In this document: positions 1,791 through 53,516 of the stretch, in pieces
How positions within the stretch are numbered: the first letter of the stretch is position 1
Layout of the letters: the number at the start of each line of letters is the position of its first letter
DNA from: Ectocarpus siliculosus
Taxonomy: Eukaryota > Sar > Phaeophyceae > Ectocarpales > Ectocarpaceae
Length of the DNA: 64,000 bases
Direction of reading: 5' to 3'
Assembly (NCBI GenBank): GCA_000310025.1
Contig: FN648499.1
Coordinates: 115,731 to 179,730, forward strand
Made by a program: the position numbers and the translations under genes
Notes under the pieces: model-generated
Told to the model about the DNA's origin: nothing
Seen by the model: only the letters and a program-made list of their open reading frames with translations
The model's database searches: none

Positions 1791-2051
1791 TACTTGCCTT
1801 TGGCGGCCCGACTTGCGGGACAAGCTGGTGTCCGAGCCCGGCCCGGTCCTACTCTTGTTCTTGGAGCCACGAGCGCCATCCCCGCCACGCTGGCCACCTT
1901 TCTCTCCCGGCTACCACCCACCGAAGAGGACGAAGGCGCCGGGGGTCGACGCGATGCTCCGGCCGAGCTCCAGCCCGACTCCTCTCCCGAGCTACCAGGA
2001 CCACTCTCCCGACTCGGTTGCGCCTGCTTGACACGACCCGGCGCCGGCTGC

Positions 2052-2949
2052 GTGGGTAGAAGCGGAGCTAAAGGGATTGGGCAAATACACCTACAGCAGT
2101 CGAGACCGCAGGAACAGGCACATTAGCAGCCGAAACTGCACGTGTAGTCGAAACTACTGAAGCTAAAGCATAGGAGGCAAACGAAATGGCCTGTGTGGGC
2201 GAAACCACGGGATCAAATGCAGTATAATCAACCGAAAGAGCTGTGGTAGACGAGGCTACTGTGGGGAGTGTACCAGAGGCAATCGAAATCGCCCGTGTAG
2301 TCGAAACTACTGGAACAGTGGGTGGTGATGCGGCGGAATCTGCAAGCGGTGATGTCACTGAAGCAGATGCACGACGGTCACGAAGCCGTTGAGCGCGAGC
2401 CGCTGCTTGTACACGATCGCTACGAGAAGAAAAAGGGGGAATCGCCGACTGGACAAGCGTGGTACTACAGGGCCAGCAACACGGTCGAAACCGATGTCGG
2501 TCCCAAGAGCAGAGTGCTCAACGGTGGATGGGGCGAGAGGAAAATCCGAGTCGACATGTGGTTCACGCGGGAATTCAGAAAGCTCATCACCAGCAGCCGT
2601 CGAGACGGACTGCTGTTGTGCACCCAAAGGCACAGAGGCAGAAACCGAAGTTCCAGGTGTGGGTGCTGGCGGTTTGAGGACAGCACCCACGGGGTTAGCG
2701 TCGGCCGAAACCGGCGAGGCGAACCTCTCCCGAATGCGTTGAGCGCGAAGCTCTGACAAACGAGCGGCATCGGCAACAGGGTCAGCGGCACGAGCACGTC
2801 CGAAGACAGCAGCAGCTGTGTGGCCTGACGACCAGCTGCCGGGGACCCGAAGGTCGTTACGCGAGGCGGTGACACCGGCGAACGCGAACGTTCAGAATGC
2901 TCAGGGCTCGCCGAAGCGGAGTCCGATGAGCCGACGCTAGATTGAGACA
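2052..2949 (-). pseudogene. Gag N-terminal region of E1 copy 1, deleted and frameshifted
   Basis: This matches the serine/threonine/alanine-rich N-terminal part of the large gag ORF in the full element (49326-52724). The probable initiator ATG is on the minus strand near 2949 (MSQSSVGSSDS). A missing base near 2795 breaks the frame, and about 1.9 kb encoding the coiled-coil centre is absent. It cannot make the full protein. Confidence 0.7.
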
Positions 2950-3085
2950 TACCGATAAGCGAGGCAAAGCTAAGCTGTGGTTGGGACGAAAGCGCAAAAA
3001 ACTGCAGCAGCAGTCTAAAGCACCAAACCGCGCCAAGACACAACCAACTCAGACAACACCGTACGAATAAGCCGACAACGCCAAG

Positions 3086-3354
3086 TGTAGTGGTATGCAC
3101 GCGTGATGAAGTCTGGTTGACCCGTGAAGAAGAACTCACTTGTTGTTACTCTTGTAGAACAGCAGCAGCAGTAGCTGTTTGCCTTGGGTATCGGTAGGAA
3201 TGACACCGAGGGGCACAGGATCCTCTGCACAAGCAGGGGCTACTAGATCCTGTCCCCTGCTTTTTATCCTTCCGCGGAGAGTTACATCTCTCCGCGCCTT
3301 CTAGAAGGAACCAAGCTCTTCTATGTTCCGTCTACACATCTGAATCCTATAACA
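3086..3354 (-). repeat. 5' LTR of E1 copy 1
   Basis: This 269-bp sequence starts TG and ends CA. It matches the two 268-bp LTRs at 39001-39268 and 52861-53128 apart from an extra T near 3178 and one substitution. It contains a perfect 9-bp hairpin (CGCGGAGAG, loop TTACAT) at 3273-3296, probably part of the transcribed R/poly(A) region. The flanking base pairs to the right belong to repeat R1. Confidence 0.9.
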
Positions 3355-3910
3355 AAAAGCTGATCTCGAGCTATAGTGCACATCTCGTGGCGCCTCGAGT
3401 ATGGTTCGGTGTGGAATCGCAAATCACGAGCCGTCCCCGAGTTTGAGCAGCTTCCGCCTCCTGTGGCCGGCAAGAGTCGGCGTTGACTGTTCCTTGCCTG
3501 TTTCGCCATGGAAACGGCCGGTTGAACAGCGAAAGAGGGTCCTGCGTGCTGCGCGCCATTTTTTTATTTTTGCGTTTGTTCTTGAGTGACCATTGTACAC
3601 ATGCGGCTGCTGCTGCGCTGCTATTATGCTCGGAGTGTGCTGCAACGGTCGTACGGTGATCGTAGTAAGGTTTGATAACAGTCTGCTCGTTCGTATAGCG
3701 GTAGCGGTGCGCATCTATGGCGACGGCAAGCGCATTGAGATATTAGTTCGTCCGTCGTGCTTCAGTCTGCACAGATATTATTGTCGTGTTCTTCTTTGTT
3801 GCCACTTCATACCAGAAAAGAAAGAAAGTCTCCACCAACTTCAAGCAGTATCTATCTCCACAGCAGTTCGGAATATGAAAGTTTGTTGTCGAAGACGGAA
3901 TAAACTGTAG
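3355..3910. repeat. Dispersed repeat R1, copy 1 (uninterrupted)
   Basis: This stretch matches the two halves of an R1 copy (38829-39000 and 53129-53516) that is split by the full-length E1 element. It runs through the insertion point of that element near 3518-3525, so it shows the pre-insertion state. A more diverged third copy lies at about 54020-54220. No convincing ORF or terminal structure was found, so its nature is unknown. Confidence 0.75.
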
Positions 3911-38828: not shown

Positions 38829-39000
38829 AAATGCTGATCTGGAGCTACAGTGCAAATGTCGTGGCGCCTCGAGTGTGGTTCGGTGTGGAATCGCAAATCA
38901 TGAGCCGTCCCCGAGTTTGAGCAGCTTCCGCCTCCTGTGGTCGGCAAGAGTCGACCTTCACTGTTCCTTGCCCTATTTCGCCATGGAAACGGCCGGTTGA
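38829..39000. repeat. Repeat R1 copy 2, left half
   Basis: Matches 3355-3525. It is cut at 39000 by the full-length E1 element and resumes at 53129. Confidence 0.85.
38994..39000. repeat. Target duplication of E1 (left)
   Basis: CGGTTGA, repeated at 53129-53135. If one C belongs to the LTR the duplication is 6 bp. The uninterrupted R1 copy has this sequence once. Confidence 0.8.
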
Positions 39001-39268
39001 TGTAGTGGTATGCACGCGTGATGAAGTCTGGTTGACCCGTGAAGAAGAACTCACTTGTTGTTACTCTTGTAGAACAGCAGCAGCAGTAGCTGTTGCCTTG
39101 GGTATCGGTAGGAATGACACCAAGGGGCACAGGATCCTCTGCACAAGCAGGGGCTACTAGATCCTGTCCCCTGCTTTTTATCCTTCCGCGGAGAGTTACA
39201 TCTCTCCGCGCCTTCTAGAAGGAACCAAGCTCTTCTATGTTCCGTCTACACATCTGAATCCTATAACA
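39001..39268 (-). repeat. 3' LTR of full-length E1
   Basis: 268 bp, TG...CA, identical by eye to 52861-53128. It contains a perfect hairpin (CGCGGAGAG, loop TTACAT) at 39187-39210 and a GCAGGGG...CCCCTGC inverted repeat. A purine-rich tract (AGGGTGGGCTAG on the minus strand) lies just inside. Confidence 0.95.
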
Positions 39269-39829
39269 CTAGCCCACCCTGGAGGTTCTCATACGCAGAT
39301 ACTGTAAAACCTCGGAGTCTTGACAAGCAATTGTCGAGTCTCTAAATGAAAGTATCGAGGATGTGGAGCTCCAAAACAGCACAATTCACCCTCCCCCACC
39401 TCTCACTCGATGAGTCGCAAGACCATCGTTTGACTTCTAAAACGACAGAAAGACACAGACAGCAAGGAACTGACGGGGCTAAGAAAAGCCTACGACGACC
39501 GGAAGAAGGTCGGAACCAAAGAAAGGAAAACACAAAGAAGGAAGAAAAACAGAAAAGAAAAACAAAGGTCGTCAAAACGACAAAAAAGAAAGGATCACTG
39601 TAGGAACCACAACAAGACCGGTATCGTAAGAAAACGATCAGATACGCCATTCACGCAGTCGCCACGGCAGTGTAGAAGGGGCAACAATGGGCGCGAAACA
39701 CCTACAGGTCGTGACCAAACGCTAAAGGCACAAAATAAAGCGAGGAGAAAGCGAAAACCAACCAAGGCTAAAAAAACAACCCAAACAACGCTGAAAACAA
39801 GAGAAAGCCAAGACAACTAGCACGTCGTC
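39269..39829 (-). other. E1 3' untranslated region
   Basis: About 560 bp between the pol stop and the 3' LTR, A-rich on the plus strand. No ORF of note. Confidence 0.6.
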
Positions 39830-42800
39830 TTAGTGGGGGCGCGCCACGTTATCAGGCAACGAATCAGCCCCGGGGTCACCACGCGACATGTCGACGTTGC
39901 GAAGGATCCCCTTAAAAAGGGCACTGCCGCTGTGAACGTGAAGGCACCAGGATCCGGAGACGGCGGTTTCAGCGGTGGAGTAGCGAACATCAGGAAGGGC
40001 GAGCTTGACAGGGCCAGGATCGTCCAAGAAGCGGACGACGTAGAAGTCGGACGGTAGAGGCGGTCCAGTAATCTTGCCCAACCACCAGAATCCATCGCGA
40101 GCTTTGTACCATAAGAAGGCGCCTGCAGGTAGCGGAGTATTGGCGAAGCGACGGTCCCAAGTTGAACGAGAGACGAGCGAATAACCCGAAGGCAAAGCTC
40201 GCTCCCCTTTAGCGCGCGCCATCTCGCGGGTGGCCGCACCAATACGCATCGCCCGATAGCGACGATTCGTTTGGCGATGTTGATCAGGCGAACCCGTCCA
40301 GTACCGGAGAATGTGGGGCTTGGAATGCTGGAGGTCCATCTCACGTTCCCAAGAAGGACGAAGAAGACCTTTCCAATGCGTTTGGTATAAAACAGCGATG
40401 GTGCCACCACGGCCACGAACAGACTGATGGCCACTAATGCGGTCAACCTCGAGACGTTCGACCGGAGTCGACACGTCGTCTTCCGTAACATGGTAGGGAG
40501 GAGATTTATTCGCATAGGAGTTTAGCACATACGGTGTAAGGCCGGCAGGAAGGAACCGAGGCAAGTCTTCAGTGTCATGCGGATTAGCGCAAGGCTTGCA
40601 ACGCGCAACTGACACACGGTTTTTCGAGTCCGGACCCGGCAGATCCGATGGAAGGTCCAAATACAGTAATTTGGAAGCCAGAGGACAACCGTCGGGAGCG
40701 TCAGGACACGGACCCACGGCCAAGATCTTGAACGGACCAGTCCACAGGAAAGACAACTTAGCCTTGAGGACCTTGTCATCCGTGCCTGAACGAACACCTT
40801 GGCGAATGGTAGATTCGGTGTTGTACACCCAAACCCATCCACCGACGGTGTATGAGGGGACCTTGCGCAAAGCATCCGATAGGGCGGAGTTACGCCGCTC
40901 AATCCTCGAAACGGACAGGTTGTGCTGTTCGCGAACTAAATCGTAAGAACGACGTTGGCGATCAGCAGCAAGATCGCAATACTCAAGTTGATCGCGATGC
41001 AAGCTTTGGTGGCCTCGAGCATATGGATGCTCAAAAACCGTCATCGGCATGCGTGGCAGTCGGTTCATATGCACCTCGTTGGGCGCCAAACCAGTAGCGG
41101 CACTAACCGAATTGTTGTAGGCAAACTCAACGTGCGGCAGATGAATGTCCCAATCATCTTGCCTCTCATTGACGACCATAGCCAACATCTGAGCCATAGT
41201 GTGATTTACGCGCTCCACACCCCCATTGCCGTTGGGATGGTAAGAGCTGGTAGCCACTTTGCGTATAGCCAGACGGGCGTATACAGCCTGCGACAGTTTA
41301 GAACAAAACTGAGAGCCATTATCAGACAAGAGACTCAAAGGGCAACCCCATAGAGGGATATACCGATTGACAAGTACGTCAGCGGTGCCTTCGGCGGTGA
41401 ATTCTGCAGCCGTAACCGCGTACATGTCGGCACGGCGGCTGAAACGGTCAGTGAAAAGCAGAATATATGTGTTTCCGCGCGGTGTCAACGGGAGGGGACC
41501 GAAATAATCGACGCTCACCGATACACCAGGGCCCGAAGGCAGCGGAAGGCACAAAGTAGGCCATCGAGGCGTTTGACGAGATGACTTGCGAGCTTGGCAT
41601 CGCAAACAATGCCGTACCCACCACTTCGTGCAAACACTCATGCCAACCCACCAATAAAAACGTTCCAGCATGCTAAGCGTGCGAGCGGCACCGAGGTGGC
41701 AAGATGCATCAGCGTGACAGGCTTGCATGATCCACGGACGCATGAGCATGGGAACATAAATCCGAATGGGTTCGTCGTTGAGAAGGCGAGCAGCACGCCC
41801 GCCAGGACGTGTGGCCGTAGACGACGGGGGCGCTGTTTGCTTGCGAACAAGCAAGACCAAACCATCATCGTCAACATGTAACCGGCCTTTGTTAGACAGG
41901 TCACGAATCTCCGACAGAGGGGGTCGACGAGCGGACGGAAGATGATCCAGGAAATCCGGAGGGAGAGCCGAAGGCCGACCCATAAGGATGAAACGAATAG
42001 CTGCGTCACAAACAGGTTCGTTACGTTGCTCGCGAGCCCAATCAGCATGCGAGAAACGTTCGACAGACGCCCGGAAGGCTAAATCTGCCGAGGAATGTAA
42101 AGCCGCCTCGATAGAAGAGGGGGCCGATTCCTGAGGCTCCGGCTGCAATTCACCCGAAGGCAGAGTAGCAGCGGAAACCGAAGACGAAGGCGTATAAGTG
42201 GTCGAAACCAAATGCGTCGAAGATTCCGAAGAATCGGGAGCAGCAGAAGACTGCTGGGCAGGAGCAACCGAAGTTGCAGGATGCGTCGAAGACGCAAGAT
42301 CCCTTCCACGAGCCAGAGGCGTAGGAAGGTCCGAGATCGAAGGGTCAGCACCAGGAGTCGAAACCAACCTGGTCAAAACGGGGGGCGCCGTCGATGCTGA
42401 TTGTGCAGGCGGGGAACGTCGAAACGATCTGGGCGAAGCGGAAATCCGAGTAGGAGCAGGCGGGTCCTCAGAGAAACCATAATCCACGGGCGGGAGGGGC
42501 GTGCCTGCCACAACCGCCGTGCGACGGCGAGTTCGCGTGGAAATCAGTTGAGTAGGGTCGAGAGTCCGTCGTGATGCTGCAGTCGGCGAGACGGCCGGCG
42601 AAGACTCGGGCTCGAGAGCCAAAATGTCCTCCACCGAAGAATGTAAGGAGCCAGACCAATCGAGGGTCCTGTCACCCAGGCGTCGTAGCGAAGGAGACAC
42701 CCCGCGGGAGTTGATGGACGGCCAGGGTGCGATGTTCCAGATGCCAGACGGAGACGAAAGGCCTGACGGCGAGAGACGTGGACCATGCCGACGGAAGTCG

Positions 42801-45800
42801 ACAAAATCATCTGTAGAGGGGGCCAGCCCACCCAAGACCGAAGTCGGGGAAGCTGGGACGAGCCCACCCAAGCCAACACCCACGGCGCGATGGCCAGAAG
42901 GCGTAAGGCCACAAGAACGGATGAAGAATACGCTCTCCTCATCGTCATCCGGTGTCAAGCGACTGCGACCAGATCGGTCACATTCCGCCGCATCGATCGG
43001 AAGGCGAGAGAGGAAATCAGCGTTGCCATTTGCTGAACCCTTGCGGTACTCGAGAGTGTAATTGTAGGCGGTAAGAAATTCAAGCCAACGCTGAACGCGG
43101 GCATTGTTCTCCCCCACCTTGGCAAAATGCTCAAGAGATTTGTGGTCGGTAAAAATGCGAAATTTCGTGCCCCACAAATAACCGCGAAGTCGTTTGATGC
43201 ACCATACGATGCTACCCGCCTCGAGGTCGAGGGGAGTCCAATGACGTTCGGAGTCCAAAGTAGCTCGGCTGATGAAAACGATGGGCCGGATGGAGCCATC
43301 CGGCTTTTCTTGTTCGAGAGTCCCGCCGAACCCATCGCGACTAGCATCACAGTAGAGGCGAAAAGGTCGCGAGCCGTCCGTAACGGCATCCCAGTCTGGA
43401 TAAACCAAGACAGGAGGGTTGGCCAACTCAGACAGCAGGACGCGAACAGCTTGCTCCATGGCAGGGGTGAAGGCGAACGTCGCCTGCTTCTTGAGAAGAG
43501 TGGTCAGAGGCCGAATTCGCGTAGCCATGTTGGGAAGGAACTTGCGGTAGTAGCTGAGGCCGCCGAGAAGAGAGCGAAGTTGTTTAACATCCTTAGGCAT
43601 GGGCATTTTGGTGAGGGCCGCAACCTTGGCCCCGTTAGGCCGAACACCGTCAGGGGAGATGGTGTGGCCGAGGAAATCCGCTTCGGTAGCGCCAATGGTG
43701 GCCTTCGGTGGGGTGAGTTTCAAGTTGTGTGTGCGCAAGCGTTCAAACAGAGCGCGCATGGTATCAACATGATAAGCAGGGGTGTCGTCGAAAACGATCA
43801 AATCATCCAAGTACGATGCAACACCGTGGAGATTTTTGATGATTTCGTTGACCACCTTGGAAAACCACCCAGGGGCAGCAGAACTGCCCTGAGGCATCTT
43901 CAACCACTCAAAAAGCCCGGAAGACGTCACGAATGCCGTCAAAGGGATTGTATCACGGTGAACCGTGATTTGGTGGAACGAAGACTTCATGTCGAAAAGG
44001 GAATAGATTCGCCCTTTCAACAGCTTGTCCAAAGTATCATCAACTCGAGGAATCGGAAGCTGGCTCAAAGCACAAAGCTTGTTGAGCTTGCGATAGTTGA
44101 CAGTGATGCGAACACCACCAGATTTCTTCGGTATGACTACCAAAGGACTCGAGTAGGGCGAGGTCGAATGTTGGATCAGACCAGCCGCAAGATATTGATC
44201 AAGGATCGCGTCAACTTGTTTCGCCACCGGGGGGTTAACGCGGTATGGACGAGACGTGACGGGTGCACTGCCCGGAGGAACTGTAAGCTTGAAAGGAAAA
44301 AGCGAACAAGATCCAAAGTCGGTGGGGGAACTCGAGAAGACATCATGATAGTCGCACAGGACGTTACCAAGCTGAGTGATGACATCCGGAGTCCAACCCG
44401 GACCATGGAGATCAAAAGAAATCTCACGGAGATGGCAGGGGAGCTTGTCCCATACGTGGGAAAAACTCTGACGTTGTTCAGACGTCAACCGCTCGAGAAG
44501 AGCAGGCGGAGGCGACGAAAGAGAAGCACTGGCAGAACCAGGGTCCTCTTGGCCGGGCGGCGACGGCGTGGGTCGCTCATGCAAATTATACACGAAGGGG
44601 TCATCAATGCGATGCGTGGCAGACGAATCAATGCCACCTGTCGAAACAGGACCCGGAACCCAGCTGCCCGAAGCAGTGGTGGGATCTTGAGCCGCAGATT
44701 GAAGACCATCGCTCAAACTGTGGCGAGACACAGCACTGAGAGGCACGCGAAGAAGGGGAGCCGAAGCTGTACCCAGAACGTCGCCTGGTTCGAGTGAAGA
44801 GATACCCGCGAGCGGGAGTCGTTGGCAACCATTTTGCACAAAGTGTTCCTCGGAAGAAAACATAGCACATTGTGGAAGCATATCCACGAGATAGTTACCC
44901 ACGAGGGCTGGAGAGCCATCGCTGCGTACCAAATTAACCGGAACAAGGCTATGTTCAGGGTGAAGTTGGACGGAATGTTTTCCAGCATAGCGAAGCTGGT
45001 AGTTACCATCTGTGGAAGACAAATCGTGAGCAAATGCGGTGGCACCGCAACTGCTATGCTGAGCCAGGGTAAGCTCACCAAAAACACGGTCACCAGGGCG
45101 TTTGGCACGCAAAGTGCGGTAAGAGCGGTCGCTAAACCGCATCCAACTGTCTCTCCCAAGGAGCACGTCATGATGCATAACACCATCGGGAACAACGTAC
45201 GCCCAAACAGCGAGAGAGGAAGTAGGAAGGCGCTTGCGAAGAAACTGCACGCTCAAACGGACAATAGTCGAAGTTTGAAGCGGAGCAGATTCGCCGAAAC
45301 CTCCCCAACAGTGAGGTTGGGTTTGTTTCTCAGACAACGACGAAGCGGCCGAAGCGGCTTTCATGGATTCCCACGCAGATGCACTAATAAAAGACTGCGG
45401 GGAACCCGTGTCTAAAAGAGCAACACATCCAAACTGAACAGAAGCTGAACCACTGTGAGTGAGGATTTGGGTGGTGAAAGAGTCATCATCGATGGTAACA
45501 ACACCATCAACCAAATCCGGACCTTGCTCAGGAAGCAAAGAAGAGGAAGAGGATGGCTGAGGGCACCCGGAAGACACGGCCCAAACAGCGGTGTCATGAT
45601 CCGATGGAACATTCGCAGCGTATTGTGAAAACGACGCGAATCGTTCAGTCGACGGAGGGGTTGAGGCCATCCGAAGACGCTGGTGTGTAGAAGGGCTAAC
45701 TTCATAAACCGCGTTATGTTGAGACGACGTCGAAACGTGGTCGTTGGGGGGCAGCAAACGAGAGCTGCGCTCGGGCGGCGGGGCATTGCATCGCAAAAGA

Positions 45801-46708
45801 CTGCGTACTCGTTGAAGGGCGTTGCCCAAATTGAGGCCACGCCATCGAGAGGTGGATAGAGCGTCAGGATCATCGGCTTGAAGGCCAATGCCCCAAGTAC
45901 GGTCGTAGGGACTAGCTTCGGCAAGGATTTTGTCGCCAGATCCGAGAAGATGCTCGCGCAACTCGGAGTTTTGACTTAAATTTTGCGTAAGAGCCAGTGA
46001 GCACAATATTTTCGCGCTCCTGTTCCCAAAGTGATGGGTCGAAACCACGGACACCTCGGCCAAACCTCTTGTGTAAGGCAGGATCGGACACGCGCATGTG
46101 TTTTGTAAAGCGCAATGGTCTTCGAAAAGACGAGCTTTTTCCGCAGCAAAAAACTGCTCAGCACACGAGTATACCACTCCATCGACCACAAAAGTCGACG
46201 GGGTCCATTGGGAAAAGGGAGAGGGGGGCTGCCAAAAGAAGACCATGTCAGGAGTACAATACTCGTGAGACGGGTCGAAGACAGCGGGAACTGCAGGAGT
46301 CGAAACACCTGGAGTGCGATCAGCCGAGGCTGAGGTGGCAGCCGAAGCTGGTGTAGCCGAAGCGGAGGCAGCCGAAACGCCCGCATTGTAATTTACGGCG
46401 GGAACGTCCATGGGGACGGTCTCGGACATGCCAAAGACCGGCGAAGAATCGGCCGGAGCTGGATTGGTCGCAATAATTGGGCCAGCGACATGACGTTGGG
46501 TGCGCCCCAATTCTAAACCTGAAGAAACGCCTCGTAAGTTGTCATTCAACAGGTTGCTTTCGCTAGGAACGGCCGCCAAGGCCGGGTCGGTTAAAGAACC
46601 AAACCGGGCGTGGTGCTCCTGGCCATTCCTCCGTGACAAGGTACGCGAGACCGCCGGCTGTTCGGAGGTCACTCCGGAAGGGTCCTCTCGAAGCGGTGGT
46701 GTCAACAC
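39830..46708 (-). CDS. E1 Pol polyprotein (NADAR-PR-RT-RH-IN-chromodomain-Tudor)
   Basis: 2292 codons without a stop; the frame is open up to a TAG at 46871. Residues 1-150 are low complexity. Residues 151-306 resemble NADAR/YbiA (FFWQPPSPFSQWTP, CAEQFFAAEKA, DRTWGIGL, WRGLNLGNALQRVR). The retropepsin has DTGS at 433-436. RT has FDMK at 905-908 and YLDD at 966-969. RNase H carries Asp1121, Glu1163, Asp1188 and Asp1231. Integrase has an HHCC zinc site (His1665, His1671, Cys1701, Cys1704) and Asp1734, Asp1796, Glu1832 with DD35E spacing. A chromodomain lies at 2081-2137 (LYQTHWKGLLRPSWERE) and a Tudor-like stretch at 2196-2250 (FLWYKARDGFWWLGKI). About 45 residues inside NADAR are out of frame. 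Confidence 0.95.
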   Translation of the reverse strand: MLTPPLREDPSGVTSEQPAVSRTLSRRNGQEHHARFGSLTDPALAAVPSESNLLNDNLRGVSSGLELGRTQRHVAGPIIATNPAPADSSPVFGMSETVPMDVPAVNYNAGVSAASASATPASAATSASADRTPGVSTPAVPAVFDPSHEYCTPDMVFFWQPPSPFSQWTPSTFVVDGVVYSCAEQFFAAEKARLFEDHCALQNTCACPILPYTRGLAEVSVVSTHHFGNRSAKILCSLALTQNLSQNSELREHLLGSGDKILAEASPYDRTWGIGLQADDPDALSTSRWRGLNLGNALQRVRSLLRCNAPPPERSSRLLPPNDHVSTSSQHNAVYEVSPSTHQRLRMASTPPSTERFASFSQYAANVPSDHDTAVWAVSSGCPQPSSSSSLLPEQGPDLVDGVVTIDDDSFTTQILTHSGSASVQFGCVALLDTGSPQSFISASAWESMKAASAASSLSEKQTQPHCWGGFGESAPLQTSTIVRLSVQFLRKRLPTSSLAVWAYVVPDGVMHHDVLLGRDSWMRFSDRSYRTLRAKRPGDRVFGELTLAQHSSCGATAFAHDLSSTDGNYQLRYAGKHSVQLHPEHSLVPVNLVRSDGSPALVGNYLVDMLPQCAMFSSEEHFVQNGCQRLPLAGISSLEPGDVLGTASAPLLRVPLSAVSRHSLSDGLQSAAQDPTTASGSWVPGPVSTGGIDSSATHRIDDPFVYNLHERPTPSPPGQEDPGSASASLSSPPPALLERLTSEQRQSFSHVWDKLPCHLREISFDLHGPGWTPDVITQLGNVLCDYHDVFSSSPTDFGSCSLFPFKLTVPPGSAPVTSRPYRVNPPVAKQVDAILDQYLAAGLIQHSTSPYSSPLVVIPKKSGGVRITVNYRKLNKLCALSQLPIPRVDDTLDKLLKGRIYSLFDMKSSFHQITVHRDTIPLTAFVTSSGLFEWLKMPQGSSAAPGWFSKVVNEIIKNLHGVASYLDDLIVFDDTPAYHVDTMRALFERLRTHNLKLTPPKATIGATEADFLGHTISPDGVRPNGAKVAALTKMPMPKDVKQLRSLLGGLSYYRKFLPNMATRIRPLTTLLKKQATFAFTPAMEQAVRVLLSELANPPVLVYPDWDAVTDGSRPFRLYCDASRDGFGGTLEQEKPDGSIRPIVFISRATLDSERHWTPLDLEAGSIVWCIKRLRGYLWGTKFRIFTDHKSLEHFAKVGENNARVQRWLEFLTAYNYTLEYRKGSANGNADFLSRLPIDAAECDRSGRSRLTPDDDEESVFFIRSCGLTPSGHRAVGVGLGGLVPASPTSVLGGLAPSTDDFVDFRRHGPRLSPSGLSSPSGIWNIAPWPSINSRGVSPSLRRLGDRTLDWSGSLHSSVEDILALEPESSPAVSPTAASRRTLDPTQLISTRTRRRTAVVAGTPLPPVDYGFSEDPPAPTRISASPRSFRRSPPAQSASTAPPVLTRLVSTPGADPSISDLPTPLARGRDLASSTHPATSVAPAQQSSAAPDSSESSTHLVSTTYTPSSSVSAATLPSGELQPEPQESAPSSIEAALHSSADLAFRASVERFSHADWAREQRNEPVCDAAIRFILMGRPSALPPDFLDHLPSARRPPLSEIRDLSNKGRLHVDDDGLVLLVRKQTAPPSSTATRPGGRAARLLNDEPIRIYVPMLMRPWIMQACHADASCHLGAARTLSMLERFYWWVGMSVCTKWWVRHCLRCQARKSSRQTPRWPTLCLPLPSGPGVSVSVDYFGPLPLTPRGNTYILLFTDRFSRRADMYAVTAAEFTAEGTADVLVNRYIPLWGCPLSLLSDNGSQFCSKLSQAVYARLAIRKVATSSYHPNGNGGVERVNHTMAQMLAMVVNERQDDWDIHLPHVEFAYNNSVSAATGLAPNEVHMNRLPRMPMTVFEHPYARGHQSLHRDQLEYCDLAADRQRRSYDLVREQHNLSVSRIERRNSALSDALRKVPSYTVGGWVWVYNTESTIRQGVRSGTDDKVLKAKLSFLWTGPFKILAVGPCPDAPDGCPLASKLLYLDLPSDLPGPDSKNRVSVARCKPCANPHDTEDLPRFLPAGLTPYVLNSYANKSPPYHVTEDDVSTPVERLEVDRISGHQSVRGRGGTIAVLYQTHWKGLLRPSWEREMDLQHSKPHILRYWTGSPDQHRQTNRRYRAMRIGAATREMARAKGERALPSGYSLVSRSTWDRRFANTPLPAGAFLWYKARDGFWWLGKITGPPLPSDFYVVRFLDDPGPVKLALPDVRYSTAETAVSGSWCLHVHSGSALFKGILRNVDMSRGDPGADSLPDNVARPH
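45791..46258 (-). other. NADAR/YbiA-like domain within E1 Pol
   Basis: Residues 151-306 of Pol. The start and end fit the NADAR family, which acts on ADP-ribose or NAD-related glycosidic bonds. The middle (about 45975-46115) fits only in a second frame, which reads MRVSDPALHKRFGRGVRG, then FDPSLWEQERENIVL and TGSYAKFK, typical of the family. A pair of compensating indels has thus shifted about 45 residues in this copy. Known: family assignment by motif. Inferred: any function in the element. Confidence 0.75.
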
Positions 46709-47569
46709 TGTCGACGTCGGTCGCGGCGGCCTGGTATCGGGCGCCGTGGGGCGAGCGTGCGTCGGAAGGGATGGAGCGTCCGAAGACGATCCATGGTCGA
46801 AATATCTCGTGGCGGAATCTGATGATGTTCGGCGGTCAGGACCAAGAGAACAACGCGATTCGAAGCCAGGCTAATTTGACCCTGTAACTTGCCGGTCGAA
46901 ACCAGTCAATTTAGCTACCGGTGCAACAATCGAGGGCGAACCCTCAACGGAAGCGAGCACAGACGAGTTGAGCGTATCCGAAGATTCACCCGAGGTATCC
47001 AATTCAGGCGATTCCTCTTCAATCGTCCAAAGCGCATGGCTACGGCCGGTCTGATCTGCAGACGACGGGGGGAGCGAACGAGCGGTGCCCGACAAACGAG
47101 CGGTACTCGATGGCCCCGAAGGTCCTACGGTTCTGTTCCCACACCTCAAGACAGCACTCGCGCCAGACTGGTTAATTTCTGACGGAGAGCCAGCCCGAAG
47201 AGGCAGAGACGCAGAGGTGGCAGATGATAAGTGCGATGTAGAAGGTGGGACGAGAGCATTTGTCTGGATACCGACCTGATCGACACTGGGGGAAACAACG
47301 GGTACCGAAGTATGGTTGTTATTGTGCGGCACCGAAGTACCAGAAGGGATAACATTCACCGAAGTGTGGTTATCGTTGCGTAGGACCGAAGTGCTAGAGG
47401 CAACAGTGTGTGACGGCGCGACAGATACCGAAGTATTGTCGTTGTTGCATAAAACCGAAGTATTAGAGGCAACAGAGCGTGACACACGAGCGTCTTGTGA
47501 TGAACGAGATGAGGTCCCCGAAGATGCTGAAGGCGGTCCGGGGGAAGTAGGCGAACCACCACCGATGAG
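46709..47569 (-). CDS. E1 gag-pol linker frame (47485-46871 and on into Pol)
   Basis: Same reading frame as both the upstream gag ORF and Pol. It lies between a TGA (47570-47572) and a TAG (46871-46873). The sequence is Ser/Thr/Asn-rich with repeated TSVxxNxNHTSV units. In gypsy C the matching stretch has the TGA but no second stop. It probably forms the start of the Gag-Pol fusion. Confidence 0.55.
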
Positions 47570-49594
47570 TCATCCGCTGCGAGAACGACCACCATTTTGG
47601 AAGTTGCCAGGTTGACGGGCATTGTGATTGGTCGAAACCATGATGCCAGACGAAGGACCGGTGTGTGCATGTGTTTGTGGTTGATAGAGGGACAGAGCAC
47701 CAGTGTGGTTGGTGTTGATCGAAGGGTGTTGCTGAGGGTGAGAGTTACCCGCAGAATTTCCTGGGGCATACCCACCGTTGTGCAATTGTGTCTGATGAGT
47801 GTGAGGGGAACTACCACCGTCGGAACGGCGATTCCCAGCGTGGTTTCGACGCTGAGAGGACGAAGAGGAAGAGCGCTGGTGGCGTCTACCCTGATTGTTT
47901 TGGCGGTTGTCCGCACTTTTTCGTCGAAAAGACCGCATACGGCCTTGCCAACGTCTAAAAGCAGCAGAATCGTCATTGAGGAGACCCAACTCAGGGTTCA
48001 ACAACCCACTAGAATTCGTGAACGGTGCAACGCATTGCTTCATGGAATGGTCTTCACCCGAGCAGTTCAGACAGCGATTCCTGTTTTCGCGGAAGGCTTG
48101 CGAACGAGCCTCTTGTGTCAACAAAGGAGTCCACAAAAAAGGATCCTCCGTGTTACGAAAACTAGAAGTGAGGGCGTATACATCAGACCAATCGGCTTGC
48201 GAAGCCGGCCAAGAATTATAGTTGCGTGTGAAAGGGTCAGCATCGTGCGATTGTACCGGCAAAACTACAGGGTTCTGAGCGGAACCTGGTGCCCACTGGC
48301 CCGAAGGCGCGGGGGCGCGGTGTTGGGACCGCCGAGGCTGCGAGGAGCCACGCGTCGAAGACAACGAAAAATAAGATGAACCGCCGATAGCCGGGGTTTT
48401 ATTTGTCGCTAGAGGCGCGAACGCCTCCCACATATCCGCAATCGACGCAAAGGGGGTGACGGCCGTGGCCAGAGCACCCGGGTACAAAATCGGAGACAAA
48501 CTCGGAAATTGCTTGCAGACCGAATGCCGCACTATTTCTAGGACCATGGATACGCTAGGGGCCAAAGTACGCTCAGAGCCAGTCACAGACGAAACCAACA
48601 AACGAAAAGCACGAAGGTAATCCGCGAAAGAAGTACCATCTGCTACTCCAAATTGTTGAAGCCTCAAAAACGACTCCTGACGGTCGCCGACATCAAATTG
48701 CTCCGCAAGATGACGCAACAGCAACTGAAAAGCTTCTGGTCCGGTGGCGCCGCCGTCCAAGCTTCTCTTCACCTGCTGAAAGTAATCAGCCGTGGAAAGG
48801 ACAAGATCGGCAGTAGAGGGCTTGTCAGGGGTGATCGCACCCGAAAGTTTCTTTTCGAGAGGCCGTTCCCATCCAGGCACGTAATCCGTACTGTCCAACC
48901 CTTCGCTTTGGTCATCACACAGCAACAATATGTCGGACAAGGCCGTTCGTGTTGTGCGGATGAGCTGTTGGTAGCCGTCCCCAGGCAACAAAGTTGAAGG
49001 GAAGGGCATGGTAGCGACATTTCCAACTTTTTTCAAGTTCAGAGTGATGTACGCCCGTTGGACAGTAACTACGTGAGCCTTGCGAACTGTCGAAGCAGCC
49101 GCATCTACGATGGCTTGACGAGCATGTGCAATGTTGGAAGAAAGTGGCAAGACACTATCATCCGAAACGACAGGGGGTGCAGCAGCTGCAACCGAAGGAG
49201 CAGCAGGCGGAACACGATCCCAAGACGGTACAACATGATGAACATCTTGTACGGGCACAAAAGTCGAAGGGGGGGTGGGGTTTGAGAACCCGGGGTTGTG
49301 TGCGATTCCTGAGCCTACAGCATAATCAGCGGTAGAAAAAACAGGAGGTGCAACAGTTTCCGAAGAAACGGGGGGGGCCGAAGCCTGTGGCATGTTCGAA
49401 AACGCAGCACGAGTTTCCGAAGAAACAGGGGGGGCCGAAGCCTGTGGCATGTTCGAAAACGCAGCACGAGTTTCCGAACAAACAGGGGGGGGCCGAAGCC
49501 TGTGGTATGTTCGAAAACGCAACACGAGTTTCCGAAGAAACGGGGGGGGCCGAAGCCGGAAGGTCAAAATCATCACGCAAAAAGAAACGAGCAT
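47570..49594 (-). CDS. E1 Gag, capsid and nucleocapsid part
   Basis: 674 codons. It starts inside the 57-bp repeat (PQASAPPVSSETRAAFSNM units). A helical Gag core lies at about residues 170-390 (LDGGATGPEAFQLLLRHLAE, LRLQQFGVADGTSFADYLRA). A zinc knuckle CLNCSGEDHSMKQC and a basic Arg/Ser/Asn-rich tail follow. It stops at TGA followed by CTC. The frame differs by one base from the upstream gag ORF. In-frame with Pol beyond two stops. Confidence 0.85.
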   Translation of the reverse strand: MLVSFCVMILTFRLRPPPFLRKLVLRFRTYHRLRPPPVCSETRAAFSNMPQASAPPVSSETRAAFSNMPQASAPPVSSETVAPPVFSTADYAVGSGIAHNPGFSNPTPPSTFVPVQDVHHVVPSWDRVPPAAPSVAAAAPPVVSDDSVLPLSSNIAHARQAIVDAAASTVRKAHVVTVQRAYITLNLKKVGNVATMPFPSTLLPGDGYQQLIRTTRTALSDILLLCDDQSEGLDSTDYVPGWERPLEKKLSGAITPDKPSTADLVLSTADYFQQVKRSLDGGATGPEAFQLLLRHLAEQFDVGDRQESFLRLQQFGVADGTSFADYLRAFRLLVSSVTGSERTLAPSVSMVLEIVRHSVCKQFPSLSPILYPGALATAVTPFASIADMWEAFAPLATNKTPAIGGSSYFSLSSTRGSSQPRRSQHRAPAPSGQWAPGSAQNPVVLPVQSHDADPFTRNYNSWPASQADWSDVYALTSSFRNTEDPFLWTPLLTQEARSQAFRENRNRCLNCSGEDHSMKQCVAPFTNSSGLLNPELGLLNDDSAAFRRWQGRMRSFRRKSADNRQNNQGRRHQRSSSSSSQRRNHAGNRRSDGGSSPHTHQTQLHNGGYAPGNSAGNSHPQQHPSINTNHTGALSLYQPQTHAHTGPSSGIMVSTNHNARQPGNFQNGGRSRSG

Positions 49595-52500
49595 CCGAAG
49601 TCGCGTCCACGAGGGACGGAACTACTTGCCTTTGACGACCTGGCTTGCGGGGCAAGCTGGTGTCCGAGCCTGACCCGGTCTTGCTCTTGTTCTTGGAGCC
49701 ACGAGTGCCATCCCCGCCACGCTTGGCCACCTTTCTTTCCCGGCTACCACCGACCGAAGAGGACGAAGGCGCCGGGGGTCGACGCGATGCTCCGGCCGAG
49801 CTCCAGCCCGACTCCTCGCCCGAGCTACCAGGCCCACTCTCTCGACTCGGTTGTGCCTGCTTGACACGACCCGGCGCCGGCTGCTGGAACCCATAGGAAG
49901 CCTCTAAAGGCGGACCGCTGCAGCCAGGGTACACCACCGGAGCAGTGGCACGGGCGTTGGCCGTCCGCATACCAGCGAGGAAACGGCCGGCCAGATCCCG
50001 AAGATCCGGACGGGAGGCGTTAGCCACATCCACCGCCGCCTGTATGGTGGCGGCCGCCGGCAACGCGATGGCCACTTCCGTGGCCAAGTCCCTGACCGAT
50101 TGGCTATCTTCAGGAAGGAAGTTGAACTGCTGGTACTGCGCAACATCGGCTAGCTTAGCCGGGGTGAACCTGTAATCACCTGGCTCGAACGCGATGAGGC
50201 CACGTCGCGACGACGAGGAGCGGGTGACCGGGCTGGTCGAAGCTGCAGCCGCATACGTTCGAGACGAAGCGGCAGAGGTGGTCGGTGCCGAGGCAGCTCG
50301 CCTGCCGATTCCCGAGGCGCGGGACGACCGCTCCTCGCGTTCGCGGAGGTCCTGCTCCCGTCGTTTGCCGGCCTTACGGCCCGCTTCGACGAGCGCGTCC
50401 TCCTGGCGCCTGTCTGCCGTCAAGGTGGCGGCCAGTTGACTCCTCTGCTGTTCGCACTTCTTTTGAAGTGCCTCGAGGTCGATGATCTGCTTCGCATTCG
50501 AAGCGCGCGTCGCTCGGAGGAGCCTGAGCTCCTCCTCTCGGACGGAGACTTCCTGGTGGAATTCTGCGTCGGCGAGATCGTCCTGGGCCTGTCGGGCGGC
50601 CGCCCGGTCAGCATCGACGGCGGCGCCGCTCGCCATGCGAACGGCGTCCGTCCATGCGGTCGAGCGCGCATCCGCGGACATGACGTCCCACAGGGCGGCG
50701 GGGATCCACCGCGGGCAGGAGAGAGGTGCAGCCGTGGCCGGAGCCGTGGCCGAAGCCGTGGCCGAAGCCGTGGCCGAAGCCGTGGCCGAAGCCGTGGCCG
50801 AAGCCGTGGCCGAAGCCGGGGCCGAAGCCGTGGCCGAAGCCGGGGCCGAAGCCGTGGCCGAAGCCGGGGGTACTGCCGAAGCAGGGGTGGCGGCCGAAGC
50901 CGGGGGCGCCGCCGAAGCAGCGGTGGTGGCCGAAGCCGAGGGTGCCGCCGAAGCAGCGATGGTGGCCGAAGCCGAGGGTGCCGCCGAAGCAGCGATGGTG
51001 GCCGAAGTCGCCGACGCCGCGGGGGGTAGAACCATCTGGACAGGCTCGGCCGGCCGGCCGGTGACTGCAGACCTTGTTCCGCCGCCGGTGGCGGAATACT
51101 GAAGCTCGGGAGTCGAAAGCCGAACTGAAGATGTCGGATCGTGCTTGGGGGCCGGAGTCGTGGTCACCATGGTGCTAAGAAGGCCGTGGAGATGGCGATT
51201 GTAGCGCTCTGCGATTTCGAGACGATGCAAAGCCTCAGCCGTAGCAGCACGTTCATGCGAAGAAGAAAGCATGGGGGGGGGTGGGGGCACGGCGTAAGGG
51301 TAAGGGGAAAGGGTAGGGGCAGAGGGTACTGCTGAAACAACAGAGGTCGCAGCTAGGGGCGCTGAAGCAGGAGCTAGCATGGCNNNNNNNNNNNNNNNNN
51401 NNNNNNNNNNNAGCAGAGGCGTATCTACTGGCATAGAAACAGCGGTGTTTACAGCAGCCGAAGCCGCTGACACAGGGTTCTGTGTGGAAGTAGTGGGGGC
51501 GGGGAAAGGGGCAGACGACACTGTACGCAGGGTCGAAACGGTGCGAAGAGGCGGAGCTGCAGGAATAATAGCATCGCCAGCAGTCGAAACTGTGGGCAGG
51601 GGCGGAGCTAATGGAATGGGCAAAAGTACACGTGCAGCAGTCGAAACCGCAGAGACAGGTGCACCAGTAGTGGGAACATGATAGGCATGTGGGGGGGCAG
51701 ACGTCACAGCAGTACGCAGCGTCGAAACGGTACGCAAAGGTGGGGCGGCTAAGGCAGCAGCACCGCGAACAGTCGAAACTGTGGGTAGCGGCGGAGCTAA
51801 AGGGATGGGCGCAAACACACCAACAGCAGTCGAGACCGCAGGGACAGGCACATTAGCAGTCGAAACTGCACGTGTAGTCGAAACTACTGAAGCTAAAGCA
51901 TCGGAGGCAAACGAAATGGCCTGTGTGGGCGAAACCACGGGATCAGATGCAGTAGAATCAACCGAAAGAGCTGGGGTAGACGGGGCTACTGTGGGGAGTG
52001 TACCAGAGGCAATCGAAATCGCCCGTGTAGTCGAAACTACTGGAACAGTGGTTGGTGATGCGGCGGAATCTGCAAGCGGTGATGTCACTAAAGCAGATGC
52101 ACGACGGTCACGAAGCCGTTGAGCGCGAGCCGCTGCTTGTACACGATCGCTACGAGAAGAAAAAGGGGGAATCGCCGGCACTGTATAGTCGAACTGCAAC
52201 GTGCTGCGAGAAGCCGAGCGACTGGACAAGCGTGGTACTACAGGGCCAGCAACATGGTCGAAACCGATGTCGGTCCCAAGAGCAGGGTGTTCAACGGTGG
52301 ATGGGGCGAGAGGAAAATTCGAGTCGACATGTGGTTCACGCGGGAATTCAGAAAGCTCATCACCAGCAACCGTCGAGACGGACTGCTGTTGTACACCCAA
52401 AGACACAGAGGCAGGAACCGAAGTTCCAGGTGTGGGTGCTGGCGGTTTGAGGACAGCACCCACGGGGTTAGCGTCGACCGAAGCCGACGAGGTGAACCTC

Positions 52501-52724
52501 TCCCGAATGCGTTGAGCGCGAAGCTCTGACAAACGAGCGGCATCGGCAACAGGGTCAGCGGCACGAGCACCGTCCGAAGACAGCAGCAGCTGTGTGTCCT
52601 GACGGCCAGCTGCCGGGGACCCGAAGGTCGCTACGCGAGGCGGTGACACCGGCGAACGCGAACGTTCAGAATGCTCAGGGCTCGCTGAAGCGGAGTCCGA
52701 TGAGCCGACGCTAGATTGAGACAT
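49326..52724 (-). CDS. E1 Gag, large N-terminal ORF
   Basis: Open from the LTR edge. The first ATG is at 52724 (MSQSSVGSSDSASASPEHSE), so about 1130 codons. Very rich in Ser, Thr, Ala and Pro, with repeated PPLPTVSTxRxA units, a 12-bp minisatellite, and then a predicted coiled coil of about 130 residues (VREEELRLLRATRASNAKQI). A basic region follows. It enters the 57-bp repeat and goes out of frame at a G8 tract near 49486-49493, ending at 49326. Without that extra base it would continue into the 47570-49594 ORF. A 28-N gap lies inside. Confidence 0.8.
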   Translation of the reverse strand: MSQSSVGSSDSASASPEHSERSRSPVSPPRVATFGSPAAGRQDTQLLLSSDGARAADPVADAARLSELRAQRIRERFTSSASVDANPVGAVLKPPAPTPGTSVPASVSLGVQQQSVSTVAGDELSEFPREPHVDSNFPLAPSTVEHPALGTDIGFDHVAGPVVPRLSSRSASRSTLQFDYTVPAIPPFSSRSDRVQAAARAQRLRDRRASALVTSPLADSAASPTTVPVVSTTRAISIASGTLPTVAPSTPALSVDSTASDPVVSPTQAISFASDALASVVSTTRAVSTANVPVPAVSTAVGVFAPIPLAPPLPTVSTVRGAAALAAPPLRTVSTLRTAVTSAPPHAYHVPTTGAPVSAVSTAARVLLPIPLAPPLPTVSTAGDAIIPAAPPLRTVSTLRTVSSAPFPAPTTSTQNPVSAASAAVNTAVSMPVDTPLXXXXXXXXXXAMLAPASAPLAATSVVSAVPSAPTLSPYPYAVPPPPPMLSSSHERAATAEALHRLEIAERYNRHLHGLLSTMVTTTPAPKHDPTSSVRLSTPELQYSATGGGTRSAVTGRPAEPVQMVLPPAASATSATIAASAAPSASATIAASAAPSASATTAASAAPPASAATPASAVPPASATASAPASATASAPASATASATASATASATASATASATAPATAAPLSCPRWIPAALWDVMSADARSTAWTDAVRMASGAAVDADRAAARQAQDDLADAEFHQEVSVREEELRLLRATRASNAKQIIDLEALQKKCEQQRSQLAATLTADRRQEDALVEAGRKAGKRREQDLREREERSSRASGIGRRAASAPTTSAASSRTYAAAASTSPVTRSSSSRRGLIAFEPGDYRFTPAKLADVAQYQQFNFLPEDSQSVRDLATEVAIALPAAATIQAAVDVANASRPDLRDLAGRFLAGMRTANARATAPVVYPGCSGPPLEASYGFQQPAPGRVKQAQPSRESGPGSSGEESGWSSAGASRRPPAPSSSSVGGSRERKVAKRGGDGTRGSKNKSKTGSGSDTSLPRKPGRQRQVVPSLVDATSDARFFLRDDFDLPASAPPVSSETRVAFSNIPQASAPPCLFGNSCCVFEHATGFGPPCFFGNSCCVFEHATGFGPPRFFGNCCTSCFFYR
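49365..49560. repeat. 57-bp tandem repeat with G/C homopolymer
   Basis: Four units, each ending in a run of 7-8 G on the plus strand (tracts near 49370, 49428, 49486 and 49542). The third unit has one more base than the in-frame length, and this separates the two gag ORFs. E1 copy 1 has three units at 1585-1730, all of in-frame tract length. Confidence 0.85.
50736..50870. repeat. 12-bp minisatellite in E1 gag
   Basis: About ten tandem copies of GCCGTGGCCGAA and close variants, encoding Ala/Ser/Thr repeats on the minus strand. Confidence 0.9.
51384..51411. other. Assembly gap (28 N)
   Basis: Run of N inside the E1 gag ORF. The true sequence and frame across it are unknown. Confidence 0.98.
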
Positions 52725-52842
52725 ACCGATAAGCGAGGCAAAGCTAAGCTGTGGTTGGGGCGAAAGCGCAAAAAAACTGCAGCAGCAGTCTAAAGCACCA
52801 AACCGCGCCAAGACACAACCAAGCCAGACAACACCGTACGAA

Positions 52843-52860
52843 TAAGCCGACAACGCCAAG
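52843..52860 (-). promoter_or_regulatory. E1 primer-binding site
   Basis: Directly inside the 5' LTR the minus strand reads CTTGGCGTTGTCGGCTTA. The TGG matches a tRNA CCA end two bases from the LTR. The specific tRNA was not identified. Gypsy C has TTGGCGTCAGCTGG at the same place. Confidence 0.6.
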
Positions 52861-53128
52861 TGTAGTGGTATGCACGCGTGATGAAGTCTGGTTGACCCGT
52901 GAAGAAGAACTCACTTGTTGTTACTCTTGTAGAACAGCAGCAGCAGTAGCTGTTGCCTTGGGTATCGGTAGGAATGACACCAAGGGGCACAGGATCCTCT
53001 GCACAAGCAGGGGCTACTAGATCCTGTCCCCTGCTTTTTATCCTTCCGCGGAGAGTTACATCTCTCCGCGCCTTCTAGAAGGAACCAAGCTCTTCTATGT
53101 TCCGTCTACACATCTGAATCCTATAACA
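52861..53128 (-). repeat. 5' LTR of full-length E1
   Basis: 268 bp, identical by eye to 39001-39268. The hairpin is at 53047-53070. Confidence 0.95.
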
Positions 53129-53516
53129 CGGTTGAACAGCGGAAGAGGGTCCTGCGTGCTGCGCGCCACATCTTTATATATTCAATAATAGCGTTTGTTC
53201 TCTACAGTGACCATTATACATTGTACTCATGCGGCTGCTGCTGCGGTTGCTGCTGTTATGCTCGGAGTGTGCCGCAACGGTCGTACGGTTATCATAGTCA
53301 GGGTTGACAACAGTCTGCTCGTTTGTACAGCGGTAGCGGTGCGCATCTATCGCGACGGCAAGCGCATTGAGGTAATAGTTCGTCGTTCGTCCGTCGTGCT
53401 TCTAGTCTACACCGATAGTCGTGTTCTTCTTTGTTGCCACTTCATACCAGAAAATAAAGAAAGTCTCCACCAACTTACAGTATCGCCACAGGAGTTCGGA
53501 AACGGCAACTATTTTT
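53129..53516. repeat. Repeat R1 copy 2, right half
   Basis: Continues 38829-39000 after the E1 insertion and matches 3518-3880. It begins with the target duplication CGGTTGA. Confidence 0.85.

Follow-up and report, generated by a model that had tools for sequence, protein, structure and literature searches.

Introduction

A NADAR domain fused to a Gypsy polyprotein was reported in 2025 (Genome Biol) for one Gypsy lineage of Ectocarpus, for example Gypsy-12_Ec32 (PMC12477816). We analyzed 64,000 nucleotides of the Ectocarpus siliculosus genome (assembly GCA_000310025.1, contig FN648499.1, positions 115,731 to 179,730; this whole stretch is called the window, and positions below are counted within it), which contain a Ty3/gypsy long terminal repeat (LTR) retrotransposon, here named E1, with a NADAR domain in its Pol. 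The original prediction, made from the letters of the window, had known of no described system of this kind, a view that the published Ectocarpus fusion corrects; among the papers listed by our literature searches, we found no further account of NADAR in LTR elements. The fusion itself is thus already known. New here are the site residues of individual copies, the evidence for selection, the probable co-inheritance of NADAR with the reverse transcriptase (RT), and the evidence for a TGA-C context at the Gag/Pol border. Three NADAR-carrying Pols (P0133, P0139 and P0140) and an intron-split host NADAR gene are also added to the picture given in PMC12477816.

NADARs from Phytophthora, Escherichia coli and phage hydrolyze guanine-linked ADP-ribose in vitro (PMC11543638, PMC11125620). 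According to PMC11125620, it is unclear what eukaryotic NADARs do physiologically.

A NADAR domain in the Pol of E1

Within the 2346-residue Pol of E1 (46870-39830, minus strand), the Pfam family PF08719 matches residues 211-360 at 87.8 bits (cut-off 35.1, E-value 1.3e-24), and a profile search of the contigs finds siblings elsewhere in the genome with scores as high as 169 bits. These values rule out a chance resemblance and place the segment, as proposed in the original prediction, inside the NADAR family and inside a Ty3/gypsy Pol. All four of the NADAR-type motifs named there are present in their place on the minus strand, and the domain does precede the retropepsin motif; only the residue numbering (151-306) was offset.

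Comparison with the structure of YbiA points the same way. Foldseek matches a model of the window copy to 8bau, the Phytophthora NADAR with ADP-ribose (E-value 6.8e-7), and also to 2b3w, while a model of the intact database relative P0013 reaches E-values of 2.7e-12 and 1.1e-7 with these two structures. By sequence, the intact sibling P0005 (from copy L030) matches 8bau in the PDB with an E-value of 1.1e-18, and 2b3w as well.

Active-site residues across the family

The genome searched comprises 189,456,909 bases in 492 contigs, and P0003 of Ectocarpus sp. CCAP 1310/34 points to Ectocarpus or a near relative as its source. It contains at least 150 NADAR matches, all above the family cut-off (150 of 230 candidates were scored, and 97 of 693 in the RT scan, so that genome counts are lower bounds). 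Stop-free matches make up 129 of the 150 scored; 24 are stop-free and belong to frames with a listed length of at least 2000 aa, two of which (6365 and 10887 aa) are implausibly long. Among the 97 scored RTs most like that of E1 (best 97 of 693), 88 have a listed NADAR upstream at a distance of 955-2987 nt (median 1917), counting the 150 scored NADAR places and 9 further ones. For the remaining nine, NADAR may lie outside the listed matches or the RT at a contig end. We distinguish seven subfamilies, named here A, B, C (to which the window copy belongs), C2, D, E and E2.

Copies were compared in a set of 51, consisting of the 30 top-scoring of the 150, 20 hand-picked ones with long frames or lower scores, and the window copy. 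In the Phytophthora enzyme, nine residues make up the site for ADP-ribose (as listed in PMC11543638; the numbering of this enzyme is used below), and all nine aligned residues are kept in 46 of the 51 copies, the exceptions being the window copy, L064, L065, L072 and L073. Intact domains are therefore found in related copies, where the original prediction had suggested looking for them, and damage to the domain is ruled out as the normal state of the family. All 51 copies have a glutamate at the position of E125, which is the catalytic residue of the YbiA type and lies in the last strand; this assigns the NADAR of these retrotransposons (retro-NADAR) to the YbiA subfamily. Equivalents of E43 and K50 occur in 51 and 50 copies, and the ADP-ribose contacts R79, W89 and R93, absent from the window copy, in 49, 48 and 49.

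By analogy, we tentatively propose that the retro-NADAR is a packaged ADP-ribosyl hydrolase that removes ADP-ribose from guanines of the element RNA or complementary DNA (cDNA), and put the chance of this a little short of even. The domain would be made behind Gag by readthrough of a TGA codon, would travel inside the virus-like particle as part of Gag-Pol, and would there strip ADP-ribose off the guanines of either nucleic acid. Guanine as the site of its chemistry is suggested because the tested relatives act there.

Alternatively, NADAR might be a reader of ADP-ribose that holds Gag-Pol, or else the preintegration complex, at chromatin carrying ADP-ribose or at sites of DNA damage, alongside the chromodomain-like integrase end. 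Conservation of the ligand contacts would fit such a role, as would the chromodomain-like stretch (below cut-off) at the opposite end of Pol, the short PARP matches in the genome and the chromatin readers reported in all four Ectocarpus Gypsy lineages (PMC12477816). A reader would have no need of the catalytic glutamate that every copy retains, however, NADAR and integrase sit at opposite ends of Pol, and the NADARs tested so far are hydrolases (PMC11543638, PMC11125620), which together make this explanation unlikely.

Selection on the domain

Comparison of closely related subfamilies by nonsynonymous (dN) and synonymous (dS) substitution rates shows that the NADAR domain is under purifying selection. 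Between C and C2, dN/dS is about 0.06-0.07 (three pairs; dN 0.16-0.17, dS 2.5-2.8), a ratio that is rough because dS is high, and between E and E2 it is 0.17-0.19 (two pairs; dN 0.17, dS 0.93-1.03). Corresponding values for RT are dN 0.08 and dS 2.2-2.4 (C versus C2) and dN 0.05-0.06 and dS 1.7 (E versus E2).

Mean pairwise identity per 25-residue bin, calculated for five of the seven subfamilies with one row each (L020 for D), is 0.54-0.68 in NADAR. It amounts to 0.05-0.30 over the 250 residues before the domain and to 0.22-0.24 over the 75 residues after it, and is higher once more over the protease region, at 0.38-0.71. Frame breaks in L020, located more than 235 residues upstream of NADAR, lower the identity there.

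The sharp edges of conservation around NADAR, dN/dS ratios well under 1 and the conserved active-site residues all argue against a passenger domain that does nothing for the element. We give that explanation a very small chance, even though the domain is damaged in the window copy and in L064 and a site residue is missing from three more of the 51 copies.

Structure of E1

E1 combines the Ty3/gypsy order of RT, RNase H and integrase with LTRs and a target duplication, and Ty3 Gag-Pol is the top PDB match of its Pol in a sequence search (E-value 3.1e-99). NADAR, RT, RNase H and integrase all exceed their Pfam cut-offs. A Pfam scan of the Pol listed no protease family; the motif LLDTGS we take to be that of a retropepsin. 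The two LTRs are identical, and the insertion is therefore recent. The features are as follows.

39001..53129, minus strand: whole Ty3/gypsy LTR element E1, with 269-bp LTRs and target duplication; contains a run of 28 N at 51384-51411
52861..53129, minus strand: 5' LTR, 269 of 269 bases the same as in the 3' LTR
39001..39269, minus strand: 3' LTR, 269 of 269 bases the same as in the 5' LTR
38995..39000, no strand: target-site duplication, copy one, 6 bp (sequence check)
53130..53135, no strand: target-site duplication, copy two, 6 bp (sequence check)
47570..49621, minus strand: Gag-type frame, 683 aa between stops, sharing the reading frame of Pol; named Gag solely for its CCHC knuckle
48032..48073, minus strand: CCHC zinc knuckle within the Gag-type frame
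47570..47572, minus strand: in-frame TGA at the Gag/Pol border, with CTC as the next codon; the other four examined subfamilies likewise have TGA-C
46871..46873, minus strand: additional in-frame TAG of the window copy, with no counterpart stop in L025 or L030
39830..46870, minus strand: Pol frame, 2346 aa (open reading frame)
45791..46240, minus strand: NADAR domain, residues 211-360, YbiA subfamily by its glutamate (Pfam, Foldseek, sequence match of sibling P0005)
45970..46110, minus strand: approximate out-of-frame middle of NADAR in the window copy; residues aligned with K75, R79, W89 and R93 lost
45401..45418, minus strand: candidate retropepsin motif LLDTGS, Pol residues 485-490 (presumed identity)
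43658..44134, minus strand: reverse transcriptase (Pfam RVT_1)
43064..43471, minus strand: RNase H (Pfam)
41234..41755, minus strand: integrase, zinc-binding part and core (Pfam)
40298..40450, minus strand: chromodomain-like stretch (Pfam, 13.3 bits, below the cut-off of 25.1)

An array of a 12-nt unit (50670-51029), located 5' of the Gag-type frame, lies within a long frame at 49326-52910 (P0002, without a Pfam family). Elsewhere, window positions 1-3355 hold repeats common to E1 (D3, D5-D7, D11-D13, D17), which suggests that this region is part of a second element copy. A NADAR match at C89:113825-114190 lies immediately left of the window.

Damage in the window copy

Aligned with L030 and L025 of the same family, the window NADAR shows two one-base frame shifts that lie about 120 nt apart and compensate each other, and it has also lost three bases. 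About 40 residues in its middle are therefore out of frame, and the copy is without the residues aligned to K75, R79, W89 and R93 while it keeps E43, K50, E125, D130 and W133. Its score in the genome profile scan is 94 bits, compared with 161-162 bits for L030 and L025. Model confidence (predicted local distance difference test) is 55-67 at model residues 61-80, versus 94-98 through the domain of the intact relative P0013. Upstream of NADAR, the additional TAG sets the start of the frame that the original prediction had read as Pol.

From these lesions, the predicted NADAR activity of the window copy is probably lost. They are either older than the insertion or assembly errors. In L064 (C46:327197-327646, subfamily D), the middle of NADAR is out of frame over a stretch similar to that of the window copy, which is either a coincidence or reflects an assembly weak spot common to both.

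Expression and packaging

The Gag end was surveyed by tail motifs in 31 copies from subfamilies A, B, C, D and E. Six copies had no motif; in the 25 with a visible Gag end, TGA is invariably followed by a codon that starts with C, in all five subfamilies (CTC in A and C, CAG in B, CAC in D, CTT or CAT in E). This TGA is in frame with NADAR in 17 of the 25 copies, and a frame break lies between the two in the other 8. UGA-C is a leaky stop context. Its presence at the Gag end of five subfamilies points to stop-codon readthrough as the probable route of NADAR production, and the place of the domain behind Gag suggests that it is probably packaged in the particle. In Candida Tca2, gag and pol are described as separated by a UGA (PMC2194720). 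A word search of the main text of PMC12477816 finds neither "readthrough" nor "stop codon".

Inside a particle, NADAR would share the compartment with the element RNA, and might process or repair this intermediate in some other way, as an N-glycosidase or in an RNA-processing step. Such a function was suggested in PMC12477816 by analogy with the NADAR domains of RNA viruses, and those of roniviruses have been linked to RNA repair (PMC11287256). It appears distinctly unlikely, given that the tested activity is guanine-ADP-ribose hydrolysis and that the parts of PMC11543638, PMC11125620 and PMC11287256 on which we draw describe no RNA processing by a tested NADAR.

Origin of the domain

Trees of RT and NADAR (29 rows, one unbroken RT piece per copy) recover the same subfamilies with no well-supported branch in conflict, while the NADAR tree leaves the branching order of A, B, C, C2 and P0133 unfixed. 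Taken with the purifying selection, this agreement indicates that NADAR was probably captured once, early and before the subfamilies split, and was then kept and co-inherited with RT. The RT of the NADAR-carrying Pol P0133 is 86% identical to that of the window copy. P0139 (126 member sequences) and P0140 also combine NADAR with RT and RNase H, and their RTs are 63-64% identical to it.

Three origin trees of differing sampling were calculated, with 127 rows, 62 rows (hand-picked from the listed matches) and 66 rows (without the long-branch P0134 and P0147). Retro-NADARs of the brown-alga type group together in all three (support 99/89, with P0092 and P0124 inside; 90/76; 89/83). The largest tree places them beside standalone brown-alga NADARs and Chrysoparadoxa (99/75), an arrangement that is not upheld in the 62- and 66-row trees, and their sister group is not fixed. 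The approximately unbiased (AU) test rejects neither a clade of retro-NADARs with the standalone brown-alga NADARs (p-AU 0.349) nor one with the P0137-P0140 group (p-AU 0.446, and 0.255 with the 66-row set). The host may therefore have been the donor, or the domain may have come directly from bacteria; PMC12477816 favors horizontal transfer as the source. The 11 viral contigs with NADARs show identities of at most 52%, and none of the six viral-contig NADARs placed in the 66-row tree grouped with the retro clade.

A standalone, intron-split host NADAR gene lies at C24:2125206-2127066, with four exon pieces 62-95% identical to P0018 of Ectocarpus sp. 13. This gene (L076, C24:2124900-2127400) has at least four exons and an N-terminal stretch rich in cysteine and histidine. 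At the R93 position, it has a lysine, as do five standalone proteins (four from brown algae, one from EukProt), while most retro copies have the arginine. A stress-induced Ectocarpus protein of 391 aa, Esi0017_0056, carries NADAR at 132-291 (PMC7922944) and could be a host paralogue or derive from an E1-type Pol.

The host gene bears on another explanation, small-molecule housekeeping, in which NADAR, while reverse transcription is under way, would clear a toxic or inhibitory metabolite (a riboflavin intermediate or a free ADP-ribose adduct). Riboflavin intermediates are substrates of YbiA in E. coli (PMC11543638), and the retro-NADAR falls into the same subfamily by its glutamate. An element would nevertheless have little reason to keep a NADAR for a soluble pool of a host that has its own NADAR gene, and we see only a slim chance for this explanation.

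Among the other NADAR proteins, P0142, P0143, P0145, P0146 and P0144 (Oopsacas minuta) are long and have a single NADAR and no further Pfam domain at an E-value of 0.01; they are possibly ORF1 proteins of long interspersed nuclear elements (LINEs) or host proteins. The limpet protein P0134 (Patella caerulea, 958 aa) has four NADAR stretches.

Discussion

Several observations count against a packaged hydrolase that acts on guanine-linked ADP-ribose. DarT (PF14487), searched exon by exon without regard to introns, and Tpt1/KptA, also searched without regard to introns, had no match in the genome, which therefore offers no known guanine-ADP-ribosylating partner. Tested NADARs do not all use the same substrate, and YbiA of E. 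coli has a role in riboflavin metabolism (PMC11543638). Much the same residues would be conserved in a protein that only binds ADP-ribose. Among 11 database relatives that group with the retro-NADARs or have a Pol-like tail, only 6 have the complete set of nine (R93 is missing from P0139 and P0138, R93 and E125 from P0120, R79 from P0034, and K50 and K75 from P0014), and the loss in P0120 includes the E125 glutamate itself. NADAR dN exceeds RT dN in all 11 pairs compared, dS is near saturation for C versus C2 and incomputable for 6 more distant pairs, and YN00 failed in 9 of the 11. RNA structure after the TGA gave no signal in six copies (z -1.3 to 0.55), and the whole Pol of the window matched no NADAR chain in the PDB by sequence at an E-value of 0.01. 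Finally, the window copy is a recent insertion yet has a broken NADAR, either because a defective copy was moved by the proteins of others or because of sequencing errors.

The conserved active site and the selection on the domain fit an enzyme. A counter-defense role of the retro-NADAR, as raised in the original prediction, is possible. Its full form, in which brown-alga cells would block reverse transcription by attaching ADP-ribose to guanines in the RNA or cDNA of retroelements, and the packaged NADAR would undo this much as in the bacterial and phage DarT-NADAR contest, we regard as somewhat unlikely. Four short PARP matches in the genome, two with an internal stop, and one short macro-domain match suggest only that host ADP-ribose chemistry may exist; Pfam found no DarT within the E1 Pol.

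If active, the domain would be a nucleic-acid de-ADP-ribosylase owned by a eukaryotic mobile element, and would indicate that nucleic-acid ADP-ribosylation is something that eukaryotic retroelements must survive. The family offers a direct test, with many copies that have an intact, defined active site and a host NADAR gene in the same genome for comparison.

Comparison with known systems

The closest system is the Ectocarpus lineage of PMC12477816, which like E1 has NADAR in a Gypsy Pol; we set the two together by description. A chromodomain is reported at the integrase end of that lineage; the chromodomain-like stretch at this place in E1 scores 13.3 bits, below the Pfam cut-off of 25.1. The Phytophthora nicotianae NADAR (8bau, PMC11543638), a tested guanine-ADP-ribose hydrolase, shares with the retro-NADAR the fold, the ADP-ribose site residues and the YbiA-type glutamate. 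It is a stand-alone protein, whereas the retro-NADAR is part of a polyprotein, and identity is 27% in the Foldseek alignment of P0013.

In the DarT1-NADAR (DarTG1) toxin-antitoxin system, NADAR clears ADP-ribose from guanine in DNA (PMC11543638), which resembles the role proposed for the retro-NADAR. The DarTG1 NADAR belongs to the BC4488 subfamily, has an aspartate and is paired with DarT1 (PMC11543638), whereas the retro-NADAR has the YbiA-type glutamate in a genome without a DarT match. Roniviruses and, in their ORF1, the Tx1 LINEs of oyster also carry NADARs (PMC12477816, PMC11287256). These carriers are elements of other types, likened to E1 by description; like E1, they are RNA-based mobile elements or viruses.
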